DNA from: a virus
Reading direction: 5' to 3' (one strand)
IMG/VR virus record: IMGVR_UViG_3300002538_000028
Location: 1 to 21,479 of that record
Length of the DNA stretch: 21,479 nt
Each line of letters begins with the position of its first letter. Position 1 is the first letter of the stretch. The notes beneath the pieces were generated by a model. The model did not search any database and was not told the origin of the DNA. It saw nothing but the letters and a program-made list of their open reading frames with translations. The translations under genes and the position numbers were made by a program. Positions 3,913 to 18,706 of this stretch are shown here, piece by piece.

Positions 3913-4503
3913 ATGAAACTTACGCGAATCAGTGATAGCAGCGTAGAACCTGTGTCCTCCGCGCTAGTAAAGGCCCATCTCGTAGACGTTAATTCAAGCG
4001 ACGACACACTATTAGCCATGTATATCCGGCGGGCAAGAATGGCGCTGGAAGTTTTGTCCCGTTCAGCATTATGCGTGGGAACTGACACTCAAACATGGAA
4101 AGCCGTGTTTACATATCAAGAATGGTTGGACGCGCAGGACGTCGATGGCACGATCACGCTCGGTTACGGCCCGATGAGTGCAGTAACAAGCATCATAGAA
4201 AGACGCAAATCAGCCACTACCACAACCGTCAGCACTGATGTATATACCACTGACCCTTCCACAAATAGGATTCTTTTGAAAGATGATCAACTGTGGCCTG
4301 ATATATCTGGTACGCATACAGACTGCCTAGGATTTACAATCACATATACGGCAGTTAATACTGCACTACCGGATTGGGCCGCTGACGGGGTGTGTCGCCT
4401 TTGTGGTTATCTTTTTGAGCGTAGGGGTGATAGTGAGCCTGATAATATATTTGCTGTTGCGGGCCAGCTTGTTCCTGACGCTATTTCGTATGATGATTAT
4501 TGA
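3913..4503 (+). CDS. Head-tail connector protein (gp6-like)
   Basis: This 196-residue protein resembles the gp6-like head-tail connector family (HK97 gp6 / phiE125 gp8 type), which forms the ring docked under the portal. Visible features are an N-terminal helical region 'VSSALVKAHLVDVNSSDDTLLAMYIRRARMALEVLSRSAL' (the family's 'v...lk.hL.vd..~dd.li..~i..Ar...E...~r.l' pattern), then 'QTWKAVFTYQEW' and 'GYGPMSAVTSI' (the 'l..~P...v.si' turn), then a beta-rich part and a C-terminal helix 'WAADGVCRLCGYLFERRGD'. Length is in the normal range for the phiE125 gp8 form. The ribosome site is AAGGGGG, a G-run variant. Its stop codon overlaps the -35 box of the first HNH cassette, so the cassette abuts this gene with no lost coding sequence. 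Confidence 0.8.
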   Translation: MKLTRISDSSVEPVSSALVKAHLVDVNSSDDTLLAMYIRRARMALEVLSRSALCVGTDTQTWKAVFTYQEWLDAQDVDGTITLGYGPMSAVTSIIERRKSATTTTVSTDVYTTDPSTNRILLKDDQLWPDISGTHTDCLGFTITYTAVNTALPDWAADGVCRLCGYLFERRGDSEPDNIFAVAGQLVPDAISYDDY

Positions 4504-4529
4504 CAAAACCAGGCGCAACATGTTATACT
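4500..4529 (+). promoter_or_regulatory. Sigma70-type promoter with extended -10 for HNH cassette 1
   Basis: TTGACA (4500-4505, a perfect -35) is followed after 18 bases by TATACT (4524-4529), preceded by TGT, making an extended -10. This is the best promoter match in the window. It overlaps the stop codon of the connector gene and lies about 70 bases before the HNH start, so it can transcribe the endonuclease independently of the late operon. Confidence 0.8.
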
Positions 4530-4543
4530 ACCAAAAGTAATTA

Positions 4544-4598
4544 CCCCGCACAAAATCTGATTGTACGGGGCGTATGAAATACCGATAGGAGGTATTGC
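4544..4598 (+). promoter_or_regulatory. Structured leader of HNH gene 1 with RBS-masking hairpin
   Basis: The leader holds a stem of 10 positions with one C-A mismatch (4544-4553 with 4561-4570, 7-base loop). A GTAT/ATAC mini-hairpin follows (4572-4575 with 4579-4582). A competing AATACC/GGTATT hairpin (4578-4583 with 4591-4596) pairs part of the AGGAGG ribosome site at 4587-4592. The ATACC segment can pair only one way at a time, so the leader could switch ribosome access. The same layout precedes the second HNH gene. Confidence 0.6.
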
Positions 4599-5297
4599 AT
4601 GAGAACTAGTATACAGCGATTCAAAGATGGCGTCAATTACACGCTAGGCACTATGCCTGCCGGCATGAGATGGGGTAGGGGCACAGTTCAGAACCGTACA
4701 CCTAGCCCATTTGGCGATCGCAAACCACGATATTCTTTACTGTGCGATTGTGGAAATATTTATATCGCATTTGGGCGTGATATTGTAAGTGGTCACACAA
4801 AATCTTGCGGGTGTTATAAGCAGGCAATGATTAAAGTCTGGTCGACAAAGCATGGATATAGCTTACCTACTAGTGAATATTATAGGTTGTATAAGTGCTG
4901 GATACACATGATTAGCCGCTGTTACGATATGAATGATTCTGGTTACAACGCTCATGGAGGACGCGGCATCACTGTTTGCAATGAGTGGCGAGATAATCCA
5001 GAAGTATTTCAAAGGTGGGCTATAAGTAACGGATATTCTGACACCCTAACTCTCGACCGTTACCCTAACAACGACGGCAATTACGAACCTTCAAACTGCC
5101 GGTGGGCGACACGTAAGCAGCAGAATAGAAACACTCGGTCTAATCGCCTTATTATGGCATTTGGCGAGACGAAGTGTATTTCTGCATGGGTAGAAGATTC
5201 CCGCTGCGTTGTTTCCTATGCAACTTTATGGTACAGACTAAAGAGTGGAATGGATACCGAAGACGCGATGACAAAACCTTCCCGGCGTAGCAAGTAA
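4599..5297 (+). CDS. Free-standing HNH-type (homing) endonuclease, copy 1
   Basis: A 232-residue predicted DNA-cutting protein, probably a selfish homing endonuclease. The N-terminal part carries a Cys cluster (C49-D-C51 and S-C70-G-C72 in 'SGHTKSCGCY') typical of phage HNH/AP2-type proteins. The core has 'HGGRGITVCNEW' (119-130), 'LTLDRYPNNDGNYEPSNCRWAT' split over 150-171 with the probable metal-site Asn residues, and 'RKQQNRN'. The C-terminus 'AFGETKCISAWVED...TLWYRLKSGMDTEDAMT' is a helix-turn-helix-like DNA-binding tail (187-224). AGGAGG lies 6 bases before the ATG. The gene interrupts the order connector to head closure and has its own promoter and terminator. It is clearly paralogous to the HNH gene at 9110 over its full length. 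The family is confident; mobility and target are inferred. Confidence 0.88.
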   Translation: MRTSIQRFKDGVNYTLGTMPAGMRWGRGTVQNRTPSPFGDRKPRYSLLCDCGNIYIAFGRDIVSGHTKSCGCYKQAMIKVWSTKHGYSLPTSEYYRLYKCWIHMISRCYDMNDSGYNAHGGRGITVCNEWRDNPEVFQRWAISNGYSDTLTLDRYPNNDGNYEPSNCRWATRKQQNRNTRSNRLIMAFGETKCISAWVEDSRCVVSYATLWYRLKSGMDTEDAMTKPSRRSK

Positions 5298-5311
5298 CTA
5301 CTTCACGATGT

Positions 5312-5348
5312 AAAAAAGAACTCTCAAATGAATCGGGGGTTCTTTTTT
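5312..5348 (+). terminator. Intrinsic terminator of HNH cassette 1
   Basis: AAAAAAGAAC (5312-5321) pairs perfectly with GTTCTTTTTT (5339-5348). Four more pairs (two G-T) extend the stem inward to a 9-base loop, and the hairpin ends in six Ts. The A/U-flanked form could work in both directions. It closes the HNH transcription unit but also lies inside the structural operon. Confidence 0.85.
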
Positions 5349-5373
5349 GTGCCATCTTTCGAGGATGTGACTT

Positions 5374-6087
5374 ATGGCTTATACACCAATATCATCGGCA
5401 CAATGCCGCTATACAGCTACCATACTCACCCCGACGCTTATTACTAGCCCGGCGACTACCGGACAGGTTACGTGGGGCAACCTCGGCTCAACGCCGACTT
5501 GCAGAGTTGCGGTAGCGTGGCCGTCACTCGCGAGCTTAAATCATATAACCAACGCCGATAACGGAAGTGTTGCCACACTCACAACAAGAAAACGGGCAGA
5601 CGTTATCGTAGGCCACATGATTCAAGTGGTCATGGACGCCGTGACCAGAACCTTTGACATTATGGCGATAGTTCCACACCGCGCCGCTGGCTGGATGGAA
5701 ATAACCGGCAGGGAAGTTACCCGGCCTTCAATTATGTACACAATGACCGTGCAAAGACAGACCATCGGGAATAGTGCTTTCGGTGACGGCATGGGGGGAT
5801 TTACTTCCGCATCAGGCACAAGTGGGTACGCTACTACAGGGGTAACGCTAACAGGAATTCTCAACAGTATCGACGCCACAATCAGATACACGCCCGCAGT
5901 TAATGGGCAACTAATCTCGCACGAATTTCACATACCTTATCGCAATGACTATAACACTGTTATCACCGCTGCTGACCGGCTGGTCATAGGCACCCGCAGC
6001 TTTTATATCGTTGGGATTGATGATATGAATGAGCATCACACCGAGATATGCGTCTATCTTAACGAGTTGAAGCAAGCAGGTCAGTGA
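5374..6087 (+). CDS. Probable head-closure (stopper/adaptor) protein, possibly two-domain
   Basis: A 237-residue protein in the slot where head-tail joining (stopper) proteins sit, between the connector and the gp10-like neck protein. Members of that family are usually ~100-120 residues. This protein appears to have two comparable halves. Residues ~10-120 contain 'GQVTWGNLGSTPTCRVAVAWPSL...TTRKRADVIVGHMIQ...RTFDIMAIVPHR'. Residues ~160-237 contain 'ATIRYT...HEFHIPYRNDYNTVITAADRLVIGTRSFYIVGIDDMNEHHTEICVYLNEL', the better match to the stopper pattern ('h.i.iRYr.d......vi.g.r.y.I..v.d.......l.l.e'). The two are joined by a Gly/Ser-rich linker ('SAFGDGMGGFTSASGTSGY'). It may be a tandem duplication or a fusion of stopper and accessory domain. 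GAGGAT precedes the ATG. Function rests mainly on position and the second half. Confidence 0.6.
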   Translation: MAYTPISSAQCRYTATILTPTLITSPATTGQVTWGNLGSTPTCRVAVAWPSLASLNHITNADNGSVATLTTRKRADVIVGHMIQVVMDAVTRTFDIMAIVPHRAAGWMEITGREVTRPSIMYTMTVQRQTIGNSAFGDGMGGFTSASGTSGYATTGVTLTGILNSIDATIRYTPAVNGQLISHEFHIPYRNDYNTVITAADRLVIGTRSFYIVGIDDMNEHHTEICVYLNELKQAGQ

Positions 6088-6088
6088 T

Positions 6089-6565
6089 ATGCGAGTAATT
6101 GGCGTTGACAAACTATCTGGCTACTTCGCGAAGAAGCAAGCCGCTATCGAAGAAAAGGTAAAAGAAGCATTGATGCTGCGGGCAAAGGTTATACAGGACA
6201 AGGCAAAGTACCTTGCAGCTCCGCCGCCTAAAGTTTGGAGATTCACTCGCTTACCAACCGGGGGCAGGAGTCGTACCGGACAACCAAATACGCCGGTTCC
6301 TTCAACTTCCGATAGCATTGCTGATATGATAGAGATTATCCCATTAAATGGCGGGCTTACCATTCGCATTGTCAGCAGGCACTGGGTAAGTCTTTGGTTT
6401 GAGTTTGGCACGGGTGATACGGCAAGCACCGGCCCATTTCCGAATCCTCCGCATAATAGGTCATTCAATCGCGGCATGTACGCTTCACCGTTTATGGTTC
6501 CTGCGCTAGAAACCTCGCGAATGGGCACAATACGGGCGGTTAAAGCCGCACTAGGGGGTAAGTAA
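6089..6565 (+). CDS. HK97 gp10-like neck/tail-completion protein
   Basis: A 158-residue protein matching the HK97 gp10 family of minor head-tail joining proteins. It has an N-terminal 'VIGVDKLSGYFAKKQAAIEEKVKEALMLRAKVIQDKAKYLA' helix (pattern 'i.G.d.l...l..~...~..~v.~al...a~.i...Ak'), the central variable loop, and the signature 'VSLWFEFGTGDTAS' (y..~vEfGT) followed by 'SPFMVPALETSRMGTIRAVKAAL' (~PFm.PA...). The loop after EFGTG carries an unusual 'TGPFPNPPHNRSFNRGM' insertion. The start codon lies one base after the stop of the preceding gene with only a weak AGGT site, so it is probably translationally coupled. The stop TAA shares its last base with the next ATG. Confidence 0.8.
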   Translation: MRVIGVDKLSGYFAKKQAAIEEKVKEALMLRAKVIQDKAKYLAAPPPKVWRFTRLPTGGRSRTGQPNTPVPSTSDSIADMIEIIPLNGGLTIRIVSRHWVSLWFEFGTGDTASTGPFPNPPHNRSFNRGMYASPFMVPALETSRMGTIRAVKAALGGK

Positions 6566-7014
6566 TGCCAACAGAAACCGGATTCAGTATTCCGTTTGCT
6601 GCAATACAAGCTGGGATTTACACGAAACTCAATGCCGCCGTGACTTATGGCGGAGTCGCCGTTCCCGTGTTGAGCAGTCCGCCAATGGAGTTTACGCCAA
6701 GGCGCATCGAAATTGGCGAAGACACCGCAGATGCCTTCTGGGGCAAGGATTTCAAGGGCTGGTACACGACGACGACTATTCATGTCTGGGACAGCGGTGG
6801 TAGCCGCGCACCCGTGTTAAGTATCATGGATTCTGTGTCGAAACTACTCACAAAATTCAGTAGCCCAATTTCACTGGGCACGGGATTTTACAACATCGCA
6901 ACTTTTCCCGGAGCAACGCTTTGTATCCGCGACAGTTTCGACGAAGTCCTCAAGCTACCCGTATATCACGGAGTTTTGAGACTTAAGCTATATATTCAGC
7001 AGGCTACGGCCTAG
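6565..7014 (+). CDS. Tail terminator / tail completion protein (DUF3168-like)
   Basis: A 149-residue protein with the layout of the DUF3168/gpU-type tail terminators that cap the tail tube and set the head-tail joint. An N-terminal helix is seen in 'PFAAIQAGIYTKLNAAVTYGGVAVPVLSSPP' (pattern 'i...i...L.a...~...V.~...'). The central 'EIGEDTADAFWGKDFKGWYTTTTIHVWDSGGSRAPVLSIMDSVSKLL' has the family's 't~~i~vws...g...~~.i~~~i~~lL' section. The C-terminal strands are 'YHGVLRLKLYIQQ'. The start overlaps the preceding stop (TAATG) and AGGGGG lies upstream, so translation is coupled to the neck protein. Its position immediately before the tube gene supports the call. Confidence 0.72.
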   Translation: MPTETGFSIPFAAIQAGIYTKLNAAVTYGGVAVPVLSSPPMEFTPRRIEIGEDTADAFWGKDFKGWYTTTTIHVWDSGGSRAPVLSIMDSVSKLLTKFSSPISLGTGFYNIATFPGATLCIRDSFDEVLKLPVYHGVLRLKLYIQQATA

Positions 7015-7032
7015 CACTAAAGGAGAAAGAAA

Positions 7033-7881
7033 ATGCCAACACCAACACTTGTTGCCGGCAAAAACCTAAACATTGGGCCGCAGACTGCGGGCGTAGTAAC
7101 GCCATTAAAGTTTTCGCGCGGCGGTGATATATCTATCACCGGGACTACCTTTGATGGCGCTCACAAGGGCGACCCATCAACCCCGAACTTCGTCGGCTAT
7201 ACCGAATGGAACGCCGCCGTTAGTGGAGTATTAGACGATACAGCCGCAGAGGTGTCGGGCATCAAATGCACACTCACCCGTGCAGGCGGACTCGTTTTCT
7301 GCGGCGACGTCTCCATTGACATTAATATGGGGTTCGCCAGTGCGAAGGTTCACGACCTGTATCCCAATACGGTTTTCGCTCCGACGCAGTATACGTGGAG
7401 TGCAACAGCAAATACCTTTTGGACTTCTGACGGCACCCCTTCAGAACTGACCGCCGAATTGTTGGCGGCATTGGAAGGCACTGATTTCCCCGCCGATGAT
7501 GGCATAGAGGTGGTTTTCACCATTGGTTCTGCCATAACACTGACAGGCAACGGGAAAATTCATTCGTCTAAAACTTCTGGCGGGCACACCGACTTCGTGA
7601 AGAACGACTTCTCTATCATCGGAGATGGCGTGCTTACTCCGGTTATTACTGGAGCTTCACAGTTAGTGGCCGTTCTGACACCATTACTCGCGGGCACAGT
7701 TATTGCTATTGGGGTAAACGTTGGCGGGACAGGGTCTCCACTTACGGGCGGGAATGTCCTGGTTGGCAACAGCTACGGCAAGTCTGTCAAGATCAGTGCT
7801 CCAGTCGATGGCATCGCTACCTTCGACATCGCACTTCAGGGAACTGGGGCACTTGGCCCGTATGTCCCAGTAATACCGTAA
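7033..7881 (+). CDS. Major tail tube protein
   Basis: A 282-residue beta-rich protein expected to polymerise around the tape measure into the tail tube. It lies between the tail terminator and the chaperone pair, the standard place for the tube gene, and has one of the strongest ribosome sites here (AAAGGAGA). The N-terminal half contains 'ISITGTTFDGAHKGDPSTPNF' (split for length: residues ~33-53) followed by 'GYTEWNAAVSGVLDDTAAEVSG', the pattern of TP901-1/lambda-type tube proteins in which a target loop is followed by a W-containing strand. The C-terminal ~80 residues ('VAVLTPLLAGTVIAIGVNVGGTG' onward) are Gly/Val-rich and may be an extra outer domain, as in lambda gpV, although I see no clear Ig signature. 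Two hairpins follow the gene. Confidence 0.78.
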   Translation: MPTPTLVAGKNLNIGPQTAGVVTPLKFSRGGDISITGTTFDGAHKGDPSTPNFVGYTEWNAAVSGVLDDTAAEVSGIKCTLTRAGGLVFCGDVSIDINMGFASAKVHDLYPNTVFAPTQYTWSATANTFWTSDGTPSELTAELLAALEGTDFPADDGIEVVFTIGSAITLTGNGKIHSSKTSGGHTDFVKNDFSIIGDGVLTPVITGASQLVAVLTPLLAGTVIAIGVNVGGTGSPLTGGNVLVGNSYGKSVKISAPVDGIATFDIALQGTGALGPYVPVIP

Positions 7882-7933
7882 TTGTGTGGTAAGTAACCAC
7901 ACAAGCACTGGTGGGGACAATTCAGTCCCCACC
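7882..7933 (+). terminator. Tandem hairpins after tail tube gene
   Basis: The first hairpin is TTGTGTGGT/ACCACACAA (7882-7890 with 7896-7904, 5-base loop), beginning at the base after the stop codon. The second is GGTGGGGAC/GTCCCCACC (7910-7918 with 7925-7933, 6-base loop). Both stems are perfect nine-mers. Only a weak U-rich stretch (CTACATTTCAGTTTT) follows, so they may attenuate transcription or protect the abundant tube mRNA. Confidence 0.6.
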
Positions 7934-7964
7934 CTACATTTCAGTTTTATAAGGGGGAAATTAG

Positions 7965-8504
7965 ATGGCTAACATAGGCAAAAGAGCAAAGCCAACACTC
8001 GCGCCGGTGGCTCCGGTAGAAGTTCCGCAAGCCGACGTATTCACCACGAATGGTGACGTAGAAGTTTACGTTCCCGGGATGGAACGCACGGGGTACTTCC
8101 AGTTAAACGCACGCTCAATCAGCAACCTCCAGCGCAAGTTTGGTAAGTCGATCAAGGATTTATACGCTGACATTGCGATGAAGGCAGAGGGCGACATTCT
8201 TTCTGCTGTCCTTGTGGAAGGCTTTAACGCCCCGATTGAGCGTGACAAATACAACGCAAGCAAGGGCAGGCCGGGGCCGCTGGCTGACGAAGAGTTATGG
8301 ACAGAGGACGACGTTCTCTACAACATCAATACCAACAACATTGGCTACTTGAGTGAACAGCTCGTGACCGGATTTGGAAAGGCATTCGGGGTGGATATCC
8401 CCCAAATATTGCGCCTGCTCTCCACATTAACGGAGGCGGGCAAGGAGATGGAGACAGCGATGGCGGCGTCTGGAGCAGTACTAGCTGGTATCGACAATAT
8501 TTAG
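7965..8504 (+). CDS. Tail assembly chaperone (gpG-like, upstream frame)
   Basis: A 179-residue protein in the slot between tail tube and tape measure, where long-tailed phages encode chaperones that bind the tape measure before tube polymerisation. It starts at an ATG with AAGGGGG upstream. After a low-complexity N-terminus, residues ~30-150 carry a compact fold ('DVEVYVPGMERTGYFQLNARSISNLQRKFGKSIKDLY...') and a long helical C-terminus ending 'LAGIDNI'. I recognise no specific subfamily, so the call rests on position and on the overlapping reading frame in the -1 phase that continues to 9043 without a usable start of its own. That arrangement is the hallmark of the G/G-T pair. Confidence 0.75.
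   Translation: MANIGKRAKPTLAPVAPVEVPQADVFTTNGDVEVYVPGMERTGYFQLNARSISNLQRKFGKSIKDLYADIAMKAEGDILSAVLVEGFNAPIERDKYNASKGRPGPLADEELWTEDDVLYNINTNNIGYLSEQLVTGFGKAFGVDIPQILRLLSTLTEAGKEMETAMAASGAVLAGIDNI
8375..8403 (+). promoter_or_regulatory. Candidate -1 ribosomal frameshift site
   Basis: T-GGA-AAG (8375-8381) is in the correct phase and resembles lambda's G-GGA-AAG. Lys-tRNA could re-pair AAG to AAA, while the Gly-tRNA re-pairing is imperfect at its first base. Six bases downstream, GGGG (8388-8391) can pair with CCCC (8399-8402) around a 7-base loop. It is the best candidate between 8357 (last stop in the -1 frame at 8354-8356) and the stop at 8502-8504. I found no canonical XXXYYYZ in phase there. 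It lies about 40 codons before the upstream stop, further than usual. Confidence 0.4.
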
Positions 8505-9043
8505 TTGCGGGTGGCGACCCCGACATTGAAGCCTTCGGGTTCCTAATTCCATGGGAGATATCCGAGTTTGTTGGGGCGTATAGCCTGCGAAAGAATGAGG
8601 CGATACTGCTCGAAGATGAGCGATTCGCTAGGAGCCTGTGGTACACGTTAAACTGTGGAACTATGGGCATCAGTGAGAAGAGTAGCTGGCTGAAAGTCGA
8701 AGACCTGCGCATGTTCAACCGCGATGGCGACAAGCAGGAAATTGACGAGAAGAAAGTTGCCAAGCCTAAACGCCTGACCCGCAAACAGAAGATAGCGGCA
8801 GAGCGTGCGAGACGCAAACAATGGGCATCCTTTGCTGTTTCAATACCTTCATTAGCAGAAACACAATCGCGCCTGTACGAAATATCGCAACTGCCGAACA
8901 CTGACGTTTCCTGCTATGAGACATGGACAGAGTTGAACAAAGAGCGACTGGCAAAAGCGAAACTTAGTGACGCACAACGACTAAAGGCGTTGATAGACGA
9001 TAAGACCCGCTTGCACAACAATCCAGTTTGTGGTATACTATGA
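8381..9043 (+). CDS. Tail assembly chaperone extension (gpT-like, -1 frame)
   Basis: The -1 frame is open from 8357 to 9043. Between 8357 and the in-frame ATG at 8663 it already encodes protein-like sequence ('DPDIEAFGFLIPWEISEFVG', 'LRKNEAILLEDERFARSLWY'), which suits the T part of a frameshifted chaperone. The ATG at 8663 has no Shine-Dalgarno (TGGAACT), so the expected product is a fusion of the upstream chaperone with this extension. If slippage occurs at 8375-8381, the fusion is 139 plus 220 residues. The C-terminal third is strongly basic and helical ('KPKRLTRKQKIAAERARRKQW'), plausible for tape-measure binding. The promoter of the second HNH cassette overlaps the last codons. The true slip point, and so the 5' boundary given here, is uncertain. 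Confidence 0.65.
   Translation, partial: GIRGGYPPNIAPALHINGGGQGDGDSDGGVWSSTSWYRQYLVAGGDPDIEAFGFLIPWEISEFVGAYSLRKNEAILLEDERFARSLWYTLNCGTMGISEKSSWLKVEDLRMFNRDGDKQEIDEKKVAKPKRLTRKQKIAAERARRKQWASFAVSIPSLAETQSRLYEISQLPNTDVSCYETWTELNKERLAKAKLSDAQRLKALIDDKTRLHNNPVCGIL
9011..9039 (+). promoter_or_regulatory. Extended -10 promoter for HNH cassette 2
   Basis: TATACT (9034-9039) is preceded by TGG, giving an extended -10 identical in its hexamer to the one ahead of HNH gene 1. A poor -35 (TTGCAC, 9011-9016) stands 17 bases upstream; extended -10 promoters can work with weak -35 boxes. It lies inside the last codons of the chaperone extension. Confidence 0.65.
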
Positions 9044-9052
9044 ATAGAAAGT

Positions 9053-9109
9053 GCCCACCGCAAAGACTAATTGCGGTGGGCGTATGAAATACCTAGAAGG
9101 AGGTATCGC
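9053..9109 (+). promoter_or_regulatory. Structured leader of HNH gene 2 with RBS-masking hairpin
   Basis: A perfect 11-pair stem (9053-9063 with 9071-9081, 7-base loop) is followed by GTAT/ATAC (9082-9085 with 9089-9092). A competing ATACC/GGTAT pair (9089-9093 with 9102-9106) occludes the end of AAGGAGG (9097-9103). The big stem has a different sequence from the one in cassette 1 but the same position, length class and loop size. A nine-codon leader frame (9084-9113) ends in ATGA, overlapping the gene start. Confidence 0.62.
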
Positions 9110-9796
9110 ATGAGACCTAGTATAGCACGAGTCAAAGACGGAGTCAACTACACGACGGACAACATGCCCGTAGGTATGGTTTGGAATTGGCTCACAGTCA
9201 AAGAGCATGAAGTAGAGAGAATCAAGGGACATTTAAGGCATTTCTATATTTGCGTCTGCGAATGTGGAAACATTTGCCGCGTAGAAGGCAATAATTTAAT
9301 CAGTGGCCATACCAAGTCATGCGGGTGTTATCGGCGCGAGGTAATTACTACGCACGGCGACCGTGTGGTGGGTAGCGAGTATTTTAGACTGCATCAGTGC
9401 TGGGCAGCTATGATGAATCGTTGCTACAACAAAAACAGTGACAGTTACCATACTCATGGCGGGCGCGGTATTACAGTTTGTGTGGCATGGAGAGATAGCT
9501 CGGTATTCAAGGAATGGTCTCTCGCTAATGGCTATTCGGATAAACTCACCCTTGATAGAGAAAATAACGAAAGTGGCAACTATGAACCATCCAACTGCAG
9601 GTGGGCTACAGCGAAGCAACAGGCGAGGAATCGACGGGATAATCACATGATTACTGCTTTCGGAGAAACCAAGTGTATCGCTGAATGGGCTGAAGACGTC
9701 CGCTGCGTTGTTGCTGCTGGCACTTTGCGTATGAGACTAAAGCGCGGCATGGAACCCGAAGAAGCGATGACTAAATATAGCAGGCAGAGCAAATAG
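9110..9796 (+). CDS. Free-standing HNH-type (homing) endonuclease, copy 2
   Basis: A 228-residue paralogue of the HNH gene at 4599, alike from the first residues ('MRPSIARVKDGVNYT' against 'MRTSIQRFKDGVNYT') to the last ('AMTKYSRQSK' against 'AMTKPSRRSK'). It keeps the Cys cluster (C50-E-C52, C71-G-C73), 'HGGRGITVCVAW' (116-127), 'LTLDRENNESGNYEPSNCRW' (146-165), 'AKQQARN' and the DNA-binding tail 'AFGETKCIAEWAED...TLRMRLKRGMEPEEAMT'. The region ~31-45 between the two blocks diverges most and may carry target specificity. The ATG at 9110 is chosen because AAGGAGG lies 6 bases upstream; a longer reading starting at TTG 9071 would translate the leader hairpin. It sits between chaperones and tape measure, with its own promoter and terminator. 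Confidence 0.88.
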   Translation: MRPSIARVKDGVNYTTDNMPVGMVWNWLTVKEHEVERIKGHLRHFYICVCECGNICRVEGNNLISGHTKSCGCYRREVITTHGDRVVGSEYFRLHQCWAAMMNRCYNKNSDSYHTHGGRGITVCVAWRDSSVFKEWSLANGYSDKLTLDRENNESGNYEPSNCRWATAKQQARNRRDNHMITAFGETKCIAEWAEDVRCVVAAGTLRMRLKRGMEPEEAMTKYSRQSK

Positions 9797-9817
9797 CGAT
9801 TTCACATCTAAAATATT

Positions 9818-9849
9818 AGAACCTCTCATATAATGGGGGGTTCTTTTTT
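9818..9849 (+). terminator. Intrinsic terminator of HNH cassette 2
   Basis: AGAACCTCTC (9818-9827) pairs with GGGGGGTTCT (9835-9844; two G-T pairs) around a 7-base loop and runs into a six-T tract. The stem resembles the terminator after HNH gene 1 (GAACTCTC...GGGGGTTC). It lies upstream of the tape-measure start, which rules out a longer N-terminus for that gene. Confidence 0.85.
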
Positions 9850-12800: not shown

Positions 12801-15484
12801 GGAATAATGCTAATGAGTACGCGGCAAATGCTGGTGTTCGCAAGGCTACAGAGGCCGTACAGTCGCAGGAAGCGGCACTTGTAGCACTAAAGGGCAAACA
12901 GGCCGATGAAGTTACCCAGATAACAAAGAACATCGACACCTACGAGAAGCTGAAAAAAGCACAAGTTGGCACAGGCACAGTATCGGGGGAATTAAAAACG
13001 GTACAAGATGCCCTTGCGGCAAGTTTCAAGTACATGGCCGAACAGGTCGGGGATTCATCGACTACATGGGACGAGAATGTTGACTCTGTTAAAAAGATGA
13101 CAACGCAGTATCTGGAGATGAATAAGGCTATTGAAGAGTCGAATATTAAGATACTGGAGCAAAAGGCAGCAGTAGCTGAAGCGTCATTAGACAAAACGTT
13201 GAATGCTTATCTAAAACCTGGTGAAATCGCAGGTGCAAGAAAAACCCTAGATTCGGGTGGAACAATCCAACCTACTTCTTCCGATCAAGCATGGCGAGTG
13301 AGACTATACAATTCGGGACGCGGAAGATGGGATAAGACAAATCAAACAAGTCCAGACATGACTGAGGAAATGAATGCCGCCAGTGTGGCTCGTAACCAGG
13401 CACAGCTAGACCTGACTAAAGCGAAGAACACTTCAGCATTGAAAGAGACCACTCCCGATAAAGTCGGTTTTGGCGATGTCAAAAAAGCGGATGCCGACGC
13501 GAAGGCACTTGAGAAAATCAATGATGAATATGCGCGAAGCGTAGCGGATACGGCGCAGACTGTCTCACAACTCCAGTATGAAGCATCAAAGGAAACCGAC
13601 GACATCAAGCGTGCAGAGTTGCAGATGAAGGTGTCAGAGAATCAATTCGAGGCAACTCTAAATGAAAAATACGTCACTGAGCAACGGTCACAATATGCTA
13701 CCCTTCTGAGCATGAAAGAGGAAGACCGCGATGCTCAGCGCGACATCATGGACAAGGTGCTTGGTGACCTAAACTCCAACAACAAGCGGAAACTTGACGC
13801 CCAGAAGTGGGCTGACGCGCAAGCAATCAAGGCCATGGAGAACTACCGGAAGGCGCAGGCAGAGGATGCCGCATTAGCAGATACTCGCGCTGCAAATGCC
13901 CGTAATAAAGCGAATGCAGATAGTGACCGAATCCTTGCGCAGAAAAAACAAGCTGCCAAAATCCAGTCTGAGACCAATGGCACTTCTAGTGGTATGGTAC
14001 AGGCAGTCATAGGTAGTGCTGAACAAGACGCACTAGAGGCAATAAAAAAGAGAGAAGATGAAGAGGTGCTTGCCGCGTTTAGAATTGCTGCTAAACAATT
14101 GGACATAGACAAAGCATCACAAGCAGTGAAGGACAAACTCTTTTGGGAAGCTGACGCGAAATTGCAAGGCAATGCAGACCGAAAGAATGCCGGTATTCAG
14201 CAAATCCATTTTGCAATCGATGACGCCACTCGTGCCGACGCAACGTTGCGAAGACTGGCTGAAATCGCATATGGATATACTAAAGCAGACCGTGCCGCCG
14301 CCGCATATAACCGTAGCGTAAGCGATATGGGGGAGATTCAATCAAAGGCAAGTTCAGTCATCGCTGATGCTATCGGGGGTATTTATGCCGCACAGATGGC
14401 AATGCAGGATAAATTGGCAGCAAACGGAATTGCCAAAGCACAGGAAATAGAGGCAATACGAGTTAAGACAGAGCGAGATATTGCCGCGTTAGGTGTTGGC
14501 CCTGACGTATTGATAAATACTAACAAGCTCAATGAAGAGGCTAATGCTGCATACGATGAAATTCAGGCGCGGTTCAGCAAGGAAGCTATCCTCGTTAAAC
14601 TCGACTTCCAGAAGTCGGCAATAGAGGATGCAAAGAAGGCACTACTCGATAGCGTGTCTGGCCTCGACTTCAAGGATGCGCGTTGGCAAAAGGGGTTCAA
14701 GGCTGGCTTGGATGCCGGTATGATAAAGGCGTTCGGATTGATGGGCGGAGACCCCAAACTGGTTGCCGAGGGGTCAAAGAACGGCGATTGGGGCGCGTTA
14801 ATTAAAGGATTTACCGGGGCGCAAAACATGGCCGGGATGATAAACGGTACGGGGGCCAAAGGTGGGGCTACAGCATTTGCAGGAGCAAATACTACGGCAC
14901 TAGGGGCAAACACTACAGCCTTAAATCATGTAGCAACAGCACTAGGCTATCTTTTTACTACTCAGAATATGATTATTAAAGGCGAGCGACATATACAGGG
15001 GCCAGACGACGTATGGAAAGTAACCCCATTGCCACCGCAGCAGATAGGTATAAAACCTTATACTTCCCATCGAGGAATCCCAGAGGCGGAAATACCTGCA
15101 AAACCAGCATCAGGCATTGCATCAATGGCGGAATGGTTCTTAAAGAAAATAGCGGACTCAAATGCTGAACAGGCACTAGCGAAAAGGTTGCGTAACCCAA
15201 TCCCCCCTGCATTTATGGGATTGCCGAACCTTTCTCCTCCACGTAGTCTGTTGTCGCAACTCATGCCGTCACTAAACGGTGGGTTCAACGGGCCGCAACT
15301 CGCTATGGCAGGAGCAGGCGTGGGCGGTGGGCAAACCGTCATTGTTATTAATGACTCGACACTTGCCGATGTTCGCATACGCGGGCAGGCAATCAAAGTA
15401 CTGCAGGAAGATAGGCGTGCAGCGGCGTCGGGGTTCATAGGCCCAAGCAATAACGACGGGCGCAGAATCGGCGGCGCGAAGTAA
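9890..15484 (+). CDS. Tail tape measure protein
   Basis: At 1864 residues this is by far the longest complete gene, as expected for the protein that sets tail length and is ejected ahead of DNA. The ATG at 9890 has AAAGGGGGAA upstream; an extension to 9833 would run through the HNH terminator. Residues ~1-480 are Ala/Lys/Glu-rich and largely coiled coil. Residues ~500-640 hold the tape-measure core ('LASLFGSMDAGLAFMKKLRDF', 'AKELKAFGYSAEELIPTMQII', 'GRELLQLEKANIPVI'). Hydrophobic, possibly membrane-spanning segments follow near 747-772, 788-808, 872-900 and 951-972 ('NPLGWIILGLSAVVAGTMAW'). Residues ~985-1600 are again helical and charged. The last ~250 residues are Gly/Pro-rich. I see no lysozyme or HExxH peptidase motif. 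Confidence 0.95.
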   Translation: MAEDGMDVGGGGIYVEIGATLIKLQEDLKVAKGMVEKFAADVSTDVVTIRTNPAMLEQLEAKIAALEAQVKTLSAQVVTPQVNMAELTALRAEFTALQAQMAALSAKPVVIDVVTKTTSVGAGAAVVSGKPMPQPSAKLRELNEWNSRAIANGGEAIYTKDNSAVYAKEQAKYEAALAKRAAADERAAAKIVAAQAKADAALDSQYAKWTAKQEKWVAQKEAGEQKVAIASQTAREEEAAGLAKVEQMNAQLEASDTARMEKSVANVRKLEAVQADALAKQLAAQAKLDAATVVANAKLAARVEAFNIQKVGVNGAPIFSAADAPALNAEMANLKEQQALLSAQRGELVAQSAAWKEIDAEVMAVGERIKALSPAQAFVNGLVKEQLALEKAVATAATAKTKEGTALAAQNIRNEAQTYAQNITGLQGVTPGGVFANTFTIQKSMVLMSAELQKLTIDLNNMGPSNAAYEMTKAKIDAIAGRLRALRQAAGEMKAAMQQLGSTLQGIGMGLVMAGAVGAATIFGIGKIQSHIDQTRISLASLFGSMDAGLAFMKKLRDFSENTPFKFDILLNGAKELKAFGYSAEELIPTMQIIADKVAQIGADPEMMQRVITIFGKIRNEGKIMGRELLQLEKANIPVIKYLTEYTGESWESLSKRMRNPDMTISADVALPAFTQGMKKDSSGVAKAQEMESLSGKLSNAATNFQMAITKLGDAMKGNLMKIIDWGVSVLHAIENLSPATQKAIGDFLLFGSAGAVVTGVLALLASGIISIDAKWGQFAGVLAKIPNIAVVGPIVALIAAFVGLSLATEDGRKNLQAIGANLMAVGKNFMDFAKQVWSAVAGAGGILQPVIQMIGGFLKSITGLLAANGIGATILAFALSFKALSAVLPVVVTGVATLSRSLSALGFGFALIKAEAVAAAAGATGFAAATNIASVSVAGLSTAIKAAFATNPLGWIILGLSAVVAGTMAWNNANEYAANAGVRKATEAVQSQEAALVALKGKQADEVTQITKNIDTYEKLKKAQVGTGTVSGELKTVQDALAASFKYMAEQVGDSSTTWDENVDSVKKMTTQYLEMNKAIEESNIKILEQKAAVAEASLDKTLNAYLKPGEIAGARKTLDSGGTIQPTSSDQAWRVRLYNSGRGRWDKTNQTSPDMTEEMNAASVARNQAQLDLTKAKNTSALKETTPDKVGFGDVKKADADAKALEKINDEYARSVADTAQTVSQLQYEASKETDDIKRAELQMKVSENQFEATLNEKYVTEQRSQYATLLSMKEEDRDAQRDIMDKVLGDLNSNNKRKLDAQKWADAQAIKAMENYRKAQAEDAALADTRAANARNKANADSDRILAQKKQAAKIQSETNGTSSGMVQAVIGSAEQDALEAIKKREDEEVLAAFRIAAKQLDIDKASQAVKDKLFWEADAKLQGNADRKNAGIQQIHFAIDDATRADATLRRLAEIAYGYTKADRAAAAYNRSVSDMGEIQSKASSVIADAIGGIYAAQMAMQDKLAANGIAKAQEIEAIRVKTERDIAALGVGPDVLINTNKLNEEANAAYDEIQARFSKEAILVKLDFQKSAIEDAKKALLDSVSGLDFKDARWQKGFKAGLDAGMIKAFGLMGGDPKLVAEGSKNGDWGALIKGFTGAQNMAGMINGTGAKGGATAFAGANTTALGANTTALNHVATALGYLFTTQNMIIKGERHIQGPDDVWKVTPLPPQQIGIKPYTSHRGIPEAEIPAKPASGIASMAEWFLKKIADSNAEQALAKRLRNPIPPAFMGLPNLSPPRSLLSQLMPSLNGGFNGPQLAMAGAGVGGGQTVIVINDSTLADVRIRGQAIKVLQEDRRAAASGFIGPSNNDGRRIGGAK

Positions 15485-16243: not shown

Positions 16244-18706
16244 ATGAACAACATCACATGGGGCGCACGTGCCCTCACAATGGCCATTACGTGCATCGTA
16301 GCACTATGGGGGACTACCACTATGGCACTCGGAGCACCGACAGCAACAAATAACCTGTATGAGGTAGCCCCTGTCTCTGAACTGTTGCCGGGACCTACCG
16401 ATGGTATTACTAGGGCGGGAGCGACATTCTCATACAGCCGAGATGGGGAAGGTTTTATATTTCCAGTCGCTACAGCAGACGACGACATTGCCGGACTTAT
16501 GGGCAACGACCTATTAAAATCGGTACAGCTGGAAGCGTATTCTGACAAGGATATTCAAACCGACGCCGCACTGTCTGACTTTACGGAGTCAACCGACGGT
16601 ACTGCATACTCACTTGTCACCCCGATAAGTCAATCGGGTAATGTCAACCATAAGTGGTTGCGCAACAAAGATGCGTCTTTCGGGTATGGGGATAAGACAT
16701 TAACGGGCGATGCGACACATAGGACATATGGCGTGGCCGGGGCCGGGAATACATTTCAATCAAATTCCTGCTTGCGTATCGGCTTGCAGTTCGCCACACC
16801 ACCGCTTGGAACTGTTGATGCAGGCCCACCAGTTATTACGGGTATGCAGGCACCCACTGTCTCTTTCACTATGGCAGCTATACCTGCTGATGGGTTTGAC
16901 ATTTATCCGTCACCGCAGGTCAATGTTAGTTGGAACAGCGATGGACTTACGCTTTCTTATTCAAAATTTACTTTTGAAGGATTTGAGACACTATATACGA
17001 AACACAACAAGTGGGAAGCTGACGACTGGAGCAAAACTGTCGGCCCGGCCACCTACTACTGCGATTGGCGGATAACTGACCGCGTAATTTACTTCTATCA
17101 TGGCGCAACTGGCAAAGTGTATACTTTGAGCGTGTATGACAAAACAAATGCCGGGGCATCTCCTGCTGATAGGTTTCAAGTAAAGACTTACACTGTCAAT
17201 GCGTCATTTACAAATGCCGGTGCCTTTGCATTCAACGTTTCGCAGCAACTATTCCATACTGAAGGCACATTCAAAACCGACTGGATGACACTGTCTCGTG
17301 AGACTACCACTGCAGAAACACCCGTATTGACGGCATGGCCTACAGGTTCGACAGACTATCTCAACCTGCAGATAGAGGGCGACCAGCCGTTTGTGCGGGA
17401 CGGCAATCGGGAACGTTATAACATTCGGATGACAGCTACTTACCCAGATAGTGGGCACTTACCCGACGGCACAACACAGGCGGCGTGGAACCCGTGCCCA
17501 TTAGAAGTATTCCATGTTGACTATCCGAGCGACTGGCCTGCACTTGAGGGTTACGATGGCACATCTTTCGGTACGGCCATAGCCAAGTGCGAGGAGACAG
17601 GCAACGAAGACCCACTGAGCCGTTCAATGTCGTTCGACTTGCAATTGAGTGACCCCACTATTGAAGCGGCGCAACCGGCATATGACGGCCTACCGTGGTA
17701 TCGGCAAGTTGTAGCTATTAACTTCATGCAAGTAGGGACACCTAGCGTACTACGACTTACTGCTTTCACTAATAGCATAGATGAGCCGGTGTTCACCGCT
17801 AACGGCAATGAGCACACAGTGAGAATCAACGCCGTGTCACAGGCAATGCTTTGGTCGAAGCAATCCATGATGGGTTGCAAGCCTTTATGGGGGATGACGA
17901 TTCAGACGGCGGTAGAGACGATACTCGATTACCTTGGGATACACCCCGACAGGGTAGACACTTCCGGCGTAACTGCAAGTATCACCATAGAGGATCCACT
18001 TTTCAGCTACGATGAATCAAAGTACGGTACGCAGATGGGGAATATGGATGGCCTGCGTCTTATCAAGGATTTAGTCTATGACTACGGATGCGTACTGCAA
18101 GACCGTGGCAACCCTACCGTAAACATGAGCGGGTTTTACCTTGTCCCCAAACCTGTAGCAAAAACTGGTGGCGCAATTTTAGCACTTCCGTTAATCACAG
18201 ACGACACACCGGCCACGGGTGATGAGACCTTCAGCACGCTGAGTTTCAGAAGGAATTGCACAGAAGCCTATACGGGGATTATAGTGTCAGCTACCGATTC
18301 GGCAGGGAAAACCATTACTGCATCTGCCAACGTGACAAGCCCGCAATTACCGTTCCCACAGGTGTTGCATATCGACTTATCCCAAGCCACTTCGGAGCAG
18401 CAGAAGGCACTTGGCCTATGGAACCGGGGAAGAGTCGTTACGCAGGTGCAACTCAACGAAATCGCAAAGCACGAGCTTAGGTGGGTTTCGCAAGGTCGCA
18501 ATGAGTTGATTGTTAAGAACACCGCCTATGGGCTAAATACGCTCTATAGCGGCGACCTAGTGCGCGTTACAAGCGCGAAACTTGGTTACACAAACGAACA
18601 ATTCCAGGTCGTGAATATCAATATCACGCATGACAGCAAGGAGCTAGGGTTTAAGTATCCCGAAACCACTCTGACACTTCGAGCGCCGGACCCCACCGTC
18701 GAATAA
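16244..18706 (+). CDS. Large tail-tip / baseplate hub-like protein with signal-like N-terminus
   Basis: An 820-residue protein. The ATG at 16244 has an excellent site (AAAGGGAGG, 7-base spacing), and the gene has its own promoter. Residues 1-35 look like a Sec signal peptide: 'MNNITWGAR', hydrophobic 'ALTMAITCIVALWGTTTMAL', then a possible cut 'ALG|AP'. That is odd for a phage virion protein; an alternative start at Met27 (ATG 16322 with GGGGGA upstream) would remove it. Residues ~190-350 are beta-rich and may be lectin-like ('VNVSWNSDGLTLSYSKF', 'DWRITDRVIYFYHGATGKVYTL'). Residues ~540-820 ('MTIQTAVETILDYLGI', 'NMDGLRLIKDLVYDYGCVL', 'GLNTLYSGDLVRVTSAKLGYT') recall baseplate hub/tail-associated proteins, where a helix pair is followed by strands. 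The hub role is inferred from position between tape measure and fibre. Confidence 0.6.
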   Translation: MNNITWGARALTMAITCIVALWGTTTMALGAPTATNNLYEVAPVSELLPGPTDGITRAGATFSYSRDGEGFIFPVATADDDIAGLMGNDLLKSVQLEAYSDKDIQTDAALSDFTESTDGTAYSLVTPISQSGNVNHKWLRNKDASFGYGDKTLTGDATHRTYGVAGAGNTFQSNSCLRIGLQFATPPLGTVDAGPPVITGMQAPTVSFTMAAIPADGFDIYPSPQVNVSWNSDGLTLSYSKFTFEGFETLYTKHNKWEADDWSKTVGPATYYCDWRITDRVIYFYHGATGKVYTLSVYDKTNAGASPADRFQVKTYTVNASFTNAGAFAFNVSQQLFHTEGTFKTDWMTLSRETTTAETPVLTAWPTGSTDYLNLQIEGDQPFVRDGNRERYNIRMTATYPDSGHLPDGTTQAAWNPCPLEVFHVDYPSDWPALEGYDGTSFGTAIAKCEETGNEDPLSRSMSFDLQLSDPTIEAAQPAYDGLPWYRQVVAINFMQVGTPSVLRLTAFTNSIDEPVFTANGNEHTVRINAVSQAMLWSKQSMMGCKPLWGMTIQTAVETILDYLGIHPDRVDTSGVTASITIEDPLFSYDESKYGTQMGNMDGLRLIKDLVYDYGCVLQDRGNPTVNMSGFYLVPKPVAKTGGAILALPLITDDTPATGDETFSTLSFRRNCTEAYTGIIVSATDSAGKTITASANVTSPQLPFPQVLHIDLSQATSEQQKALGLWNRGRVVTQVQLNEIAKHELRWVSQGRNELIVKNTAYGLNTLYSGDLVRVTSAKLGYTNEQFQVVNINITHDSKELGFKYPETTLTLRAPDPTVE

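Follow-up and report, generated by a model that had tools for sequence, protein, structure and literature searches.

Two HNH endonuclease genes, A and B, lie within a 21,479-base stretch of DNA from an IMG/VR virus record (IMGVR_UViG_3300002538_000028, positions 1 to 21,479; hereafter the window). We read both as HNH cassettes of the homing type, each equipped with its own promoter, a leader that masks the Shine-Dalgarno (SD) sequence, and a putative self-specific antisense RNA of ~70 nucleotides (nt), and assign this sequence-based reading a probability of roughly 0.6. More tentatively, and at somewhat less than even odds, they may belong to a type of HNH homing cassette in phages in which copy-specific cis-antisense transcription from within the gene ends at a leader hairpin, and whose minus-strand hairpin persists in HNH leaders of unrelated phages. 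The original prediction for this DNA overlooked the minus-strand preference of the first leader hairpin (hairpin 1) and the reverse promoter at the gene start.

In the proposed mechanism, an extended -10 promoter would start the HNH mRNA shortly before two hairpins. The second of these (hairpin 2) would bury the SD sequence, together with the start codon in A, B, and a further copy, D, holding translation low. Within the first codons, a reverse promoter would start an antisense RNA of ~70 nt opposite the start codon, which would run back across the SD sequence and end at hairpin 1, the hairpin that is better paired on that strand. Each copy's antisense RNA would repress its own gene, as RNA-OUT and SymR do, and an intrinsic terminator would end the unit.

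Promoter, leader, HNH gene, and terminator follow one another in the same order in A (4500-5348) and B (9011-9849). Both had been described as matched units of these parts, and every part named was found in its place, including the extended -10 element, a hairpin with a 7-nt loop, the common string CGTATGAAATACC (4571-4583 in A, 9081-9093 in B), and a hairpin masking the ribosome-binding site (RBS), with TATACT-to-ATG distances of 75 in A and 76 in B. More specifically, the plus-strand sense promoter of A (4500-4529) combines a -35 box, TTGACA (4500-4505), with the extended -10 element TGTTATACT (4521-4529) and scores 11/12 consensus letters plus the TG, while that of B (9011-9039) has a weak -35 box, TTGCAC (9011-9016), and the extended -10 element TGGTATACT (9031-9039). 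Hairpin 1 spans 4543-4571 in A and 9053-9081 in B, each with a 7-nt loop. It is terminator-like on the minus strand in A and the first-listed terminator-like minus-strand site in B, and is proposed in both to form the 3' terminator of the antisense RNA. In the predicted folds of the plus strand, hairpin 2 (4573-4601 in A, 9083-9112 in B) pairs AGGAGG (4587-4592; 9098-9103) and the start codon (ATG at 4599; 9110).

The two cassettes are members of a larger set. The window overlaps a second record, IMGVR_UViG_3300025864_000016, over 14,181 bases with zero mismatches, wrapping round, and a 127-bp match between window positions 14055-14181 and the first 127 bases of that record closes a circle of 62,332 bp. 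This phage genome holds seven HNH paralogs, all intact: A, B, and five whose starts in IMGVR_UViG_3300025864_000016 are 45309 (C), 14018 (D), 28994 (E, minus strand), 17596 (F, minus strand), and 20922 (H, minus strand). A tree of 207 homologs places all seven in one clade (Shimodaira-Hasegawa support 96). The leader is present in A-E, at five unrelated sites; F and H have none and are nested inside the clade, which suggests that they lost it.

Hairpin 1 is the steadier structure on the minus strand in all five leaders. Its energies in A-E are -18.2, -21.6, -15.4, -19.5, and -14.6 kcal/mol on that strand and -11.7, -20.7, -10.4, -14.6, and -14.2 kcal/mol on the plus strand, an advantage of 6.5, 0.9, 5.0, 4.9, and 0.4 kcal/mol. 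In contrast, for the 3' terminators of A-C the plus strand is the steadier by 4.7-7.8 kcal/mol. As an A-C mismatch on one strand corresponds to a G-U pair on the other, the exceptions to pairing reveal the functional strand of a hairpin. The 7-pair stem of hairpin 1 contains three unpaired cells (two in A, one in C), and all three are A-C on the plus strand and G-U on the minus strand. The same lean was found beyond this phage, in the outside leaders L009, L012, L014, L070, L105, and L106. Two of these (L105:1391 and L106:3925) come from phages that are 75% identical in this region; the HNH leader hairpin is kept in both, and the sole change in its stem gives A-C on the plus strand and G-U on the minus strand.

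The reverse promoter was found on the minus strand of the first ~13 codons of A-E, with the form TTGAC[GT]-17-TATA[CA]T. In A it occupies 4608-4636 (-35 TTGACG at 4636-4631, a 17-nt spacer, and -10 TATACT at 4613-4608), and in B 9119-9147 (TTGACT at 9147-9142, a 17-nt spacer, and TGCTATACT, with the -10 at 9124-9119 and an extended -10). The sites in A-E match 10, 10, 10, 10, and 11 of 12 consensus letters, compared with 9 in the leaderless F and 6 in H. Among 212 outside homologs, none scores 10 or more within its first 60 nt, and later windows reach 10 in 0.5%. Under the promoter, the conserved Ser, Ile, and Val of A-E are always encoded by AGT, ATA, and GTC, and the codons of the intervening Asp and Gly vary. 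Codons are thus uniform in 3/3 columns here against 6/53 comparable conserved columns elsewhere (p ~0.0015, obtained as a product of column frequencies once these codons had already attracted attention). The site is not merely a by-product of a conserved protein, because E keeps the promoter despite a different N-terminus.

Together, the reverse promoter and hairpin 1 delimit a predicted antisense RNA of ~69 nt on the minus strand in both A (4533-4601; fold z score -6.1) and B (9044-9112; -7.5). The fold z scores of the sense leaders are -1.9 (A) and -4.7 (B). Predicted pairing of each antisense RNA with its own leader amounts to -80 to -96 kcal/mol and with the other leaders to -4 to -28 kcal/mol, so control is predicted to be copy-specific. 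The sequence evidence is one of conservation; transcription of this RNA, its termination at hairpin 1, and repression of the gene are predictions from it.

The same features allow other readings. A and B could be homing genes of the usual free-standing HNH kind whose promoter and SD-masking leader resemble those of T4-like phages; hairpin 1 would then stabilise the 5' end of the mRNA or adjust translation, and codon usage would have produced the reverse promoter incidentally. We consider this unlikely, although it is the best of the alternatives: hairpin 1 begins within ~10 nt of the predicted transcript start, and recoding yields an equally good reverse promoter in 3-7% of cases per gene. It does not account for the better minus-strand pairing of hairpin 1 in A-E, opposite to the plus-strand terminators, nor for reverse-promoter codons that are uniform where comparable codons vary. 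Furthermore, in the T4 cases the late promoter yields transcripts without the 5' arm of the masking hairpin (PMC2988022), whereas the cassette promoter lies upstream of both hairpins.

Conservation of the leader as a whole bears on a second alternative. The order of extended -10 element (TG[TGC]TATA[CA]T), hairpin 1, hairpin 2, and SD sequence is shared by A-E, with a constant 66-70 nt from the end of the -10 to the start codon, and within the phage genome only these five HNH genes show the complete layout at that distance. Although the stem sequences differ, the leaders of the paralogs are homologous (alignment z = 3.3-9.1 relative to dinucleotide shuffles). The stem arms were aligned by hand from the folds because a MAFFT alignment of whole leaders misplaced them. 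On this alignment, which leans towards structure and for which slide and shuffle controls are a partial remedy, two-sided changes were counted in 7 of 12 stem pairs, compared with 2.9 +/- 1.3 in shuffles (1/500 as high) and 0-2 with slid partners. Both hairpins show such two-sided changes across paralogs. Hairpin 2 pairs the SD sequence in all five leaders, and the start codon as well in A, B, and D; from this pairing we infer that it keeps HNH translation low. If the leader were only a two-way transcription boundary, with hairpin 1 blocking the exit of antisense transcripts towards the upstream gene and no regulation of the HNH mRNA, the terminator-like site and pairing bias on the minus strand and the plus-strand terminator at the 3' end would be expected. 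Such a boundary leaves both the SD and start-codon pairing of hairpin 2, with its two-sided changes, and the conserved reverse promoter opposite the start codon unexplained, and we regard it as improbable.

The HNH proteins of A (4599-5297, plus strand; P0001, 232 amino acids) and B (9110-9796, plus strand; P0002, 228 amino acids) are 58% identical, in line with their predicted paralogy. Both match PHROG 374 (E 2e-54 and 1.9e-54, respectively), the family profile matches the HNH homing endonuclease I-HmuI (PDB 1u3e; E 9e-4), and the AlphaFold2 model of B has a mean pLDDT (predicted local distance difference test score) of 90.8. No match was found in Pfam or NCBIfam, a fold search of the HNH protein gave no significant match, and a search for group I introns gave no match. 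The cassette proteins share the HNH core and the C-terminal region with the PHROG 374 / 3377 HNH endonucleases and I-HmuI but differ in a cysteine-containing N-terminal part (CxCG...CGCY), and the PHROG 374 / 3377 homologs mostly lack a leader of the cassette type. A and B are assigned as free-standing homing-type HNH genes, and, judging from the family, they would home by cleaving HNH-less relatives. A structured RNA immediately upstream of an HNH gene could also suggest a guide-like or ribozyme RNA that partners the protein (of the HEARO/IscB kind, or left over from a group I intron), but this is highly improbable, given leaders of just 66-70 nt beside 228-232-residue PHROG 374 HNH proteins, no match of the leaders to any known Rfam family up to E 5, and the different appearance of intron-borne homologs, including the phiCDKH02 locus described below.

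The original prediction further held that the cassette looks as if it moves or is inherited together with its regulation and that it may be a recurring element. A homologous leader in five paralogs at five unrelated sites indicates that gene and leader have spread together, which upholds the core of the first claim. The full block from promoter to terminator is not obligatory, because two copies are leaderless and only A, B, and C have a terminator after the gene. As for recurrence, exact leader patterns found no copy in IMG/VR outside this phage, and outside it only the architecture recurs, in ~5% of homologs. A loose leader scan gave 24/204 HNH homologs against 62/700 control genes, barely above the controls, and in a stricter scan the odds ratio varied with the cut-off between 0.6 and 2.6 (p from 0.026 to 1.0). 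An automated scan that treated the two strands equally, with other genes from the same contigs as controls, gave a clearer result: a -10 element with a strong hairpin was found in 11/204 outside HNH leaders compared with 7/600 controls (p = 0.0012, to be read as the last of three successive scans of the same homologs).

Several observations weigh against the antisense reading. In the two-strand scan, the ratio of minus to plus preference is 8:2 in HNH leaders and 2:5 in controls, an outside bias that is not significant by itself (binomial 0.11, Fisher 0.058), and the outside leaders L074 and L136 prefer the plus strand. Leader-bearing homologs from outside show no comparably strong reverse promoter. 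The U-tract of the antisense RNA is not a perfect one (TAATTACTTTT, ACTTTCTATT), and D and E have weak versions of it. Finally, A-E share an ancestor and are not independent, which the codon test lessens only partly: with its columns chosen post hoc and the copies related by descent, it is a guide rather than a strict test, and there could be other causes for codon constraint in the start region.

A number of outside loci deserve separate mention. Two further IMG/VR pattern matches, L063 and L064, were rejected as chance matches with no HNH gene. In Clostridioides phage phiCDKH02 (L232:1371-2635), considered as a cassette with phiC2 as its empty relative, the HNH homolog lies in a probable group I intron, and the phiC2 locus is shorter and lacks the homolog; by eye, this looks like an intron insertion, and the candidate was set aside. 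The HNH-rich phage CB7 provides a contrasting case, in which genes mostly abut and no such leader is found. At L134:3914 (plus strand), L134 6757 (reverse strand), and L122:3944 (plus strand), the loop of the HNH leader hairpin is complementary to the SD sequence (for example, CCCTCCAAGG with CCTTGGAGGG), which, judged by eye, is a pseudoknot-type masking unlike that in the window. In Rhizobium phage RHph_X2_25 (L065), a -10-like box, a strong hairpin, and an RBS precede two annotated homing endonucleases (15241-15371 and 16706-16836), one of them Seg-like; at 15241-15371, the 5' arm of the hairpin is repeated in the SD region and permits alternative pairing.

The surroundings of the cassettes vary. 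A is flanked by a head-tail adaptor-like gene and a head-closure-like gene and fits the description of a cassette placed exactly between structural genes. B does so less well: the tape measure gene follows directly, but the upstream open reading frame (ORF; 8663-9043) overlaps the promoter and ends within it, with its stop codon at 9041-9043, past the -10 box. This ORF and another (7965-8504) occupy the usual position of tail assembly chaperones ahead of the tape measure gene; family searches with both gave no informative match. C lies beside DNA methyltransferase and terminase genes, D is preceded by a deoxyribosyltransferase-like gene, and E belongs to an opposite-strand operon. Ahead of E, an ORF (G001 28994-29327 = L056:8994-9327, minus strand) crosses the promoter and hairpin 1 and stops within the leader, much as in B. 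The intrinsic terminators, on the plus strand, span 5318-5348 in A (-11.2 kcal/mol, compared with -6.5 on the minus strand; followed by T6) and 9818-9849 in B (-14.9 compared with -7.1 kcal/mol). Both are present, as predicted, but their 5' arms differ (GAACTCTC in A, GAACCTCTC in B) and do not share a single literal GAACYCTC. A terminator closes the unit where the cassette sits in the structural-gene region. Searches for empty sites with the major capsid protein and the adaptor found no close relatives of the phage; the distant RHph_X2_25 has no HNH gene between its connector and head-tail joining genes.

On entering a new genome, a free-standing homing endonuclease must neither wreck nearby expression nor be over-produced. 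If the antisense reading is true, portable control with a self-specific brake would explain seven related copies in one 62-kb phage.

A short antisense RNA across the RBS of a mobile gene's enzyme is found in IS10, with RNA-OUT, and likewise in other antisense-controlled transposases. IS10 is a transposon with terminal repeats, and no such ends were identified at the cassettes. The reverse promoters of SymE/SymR and EcoRI are similar in that they lie inside a toxin or nuclease gene and produce a short antisense RNA, which in the case of SymR covers the SD sequence (PMC3874152). These are toxin-antitoxin or restriction systems and not homing genes; their proteins differ, and no common origin is claimed. 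Similar in gene type are the T4-type homing endonucleases (segB, Aeh1 mobE, and also I-TevI/II/III), where an HNH or GIY-YIG gene between phage genes has its RBS buried in an SD-sequestering hairpin beside a promoter, in some cases its own (PMC2988022). There, the late promoter is placed so that late transcripts escape the hairpin, whereas the -10 boxes of A-E are upstream of both hairpins. The cassettes also differ in having a second hairpin, which pairs better on the minus strand, and a reverse promoter at the gene start; in the review passages covered, antisense transcripts figure solely as something that insertion might bring about incidentally (PMC2988022). A literature search, mostly without subscription papers, found no antisense control of a homing endonuclease in titles or abstracts among the matches listed. 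SD-masking hairpins on homing endonucleases are already described (PMC2988022), and the antisense unit appears to be new. If true, it would tie homing genes to three other kinds of system that rely on such antisense control: transposons, restriction systems, and toxin-antitoxin pairs.
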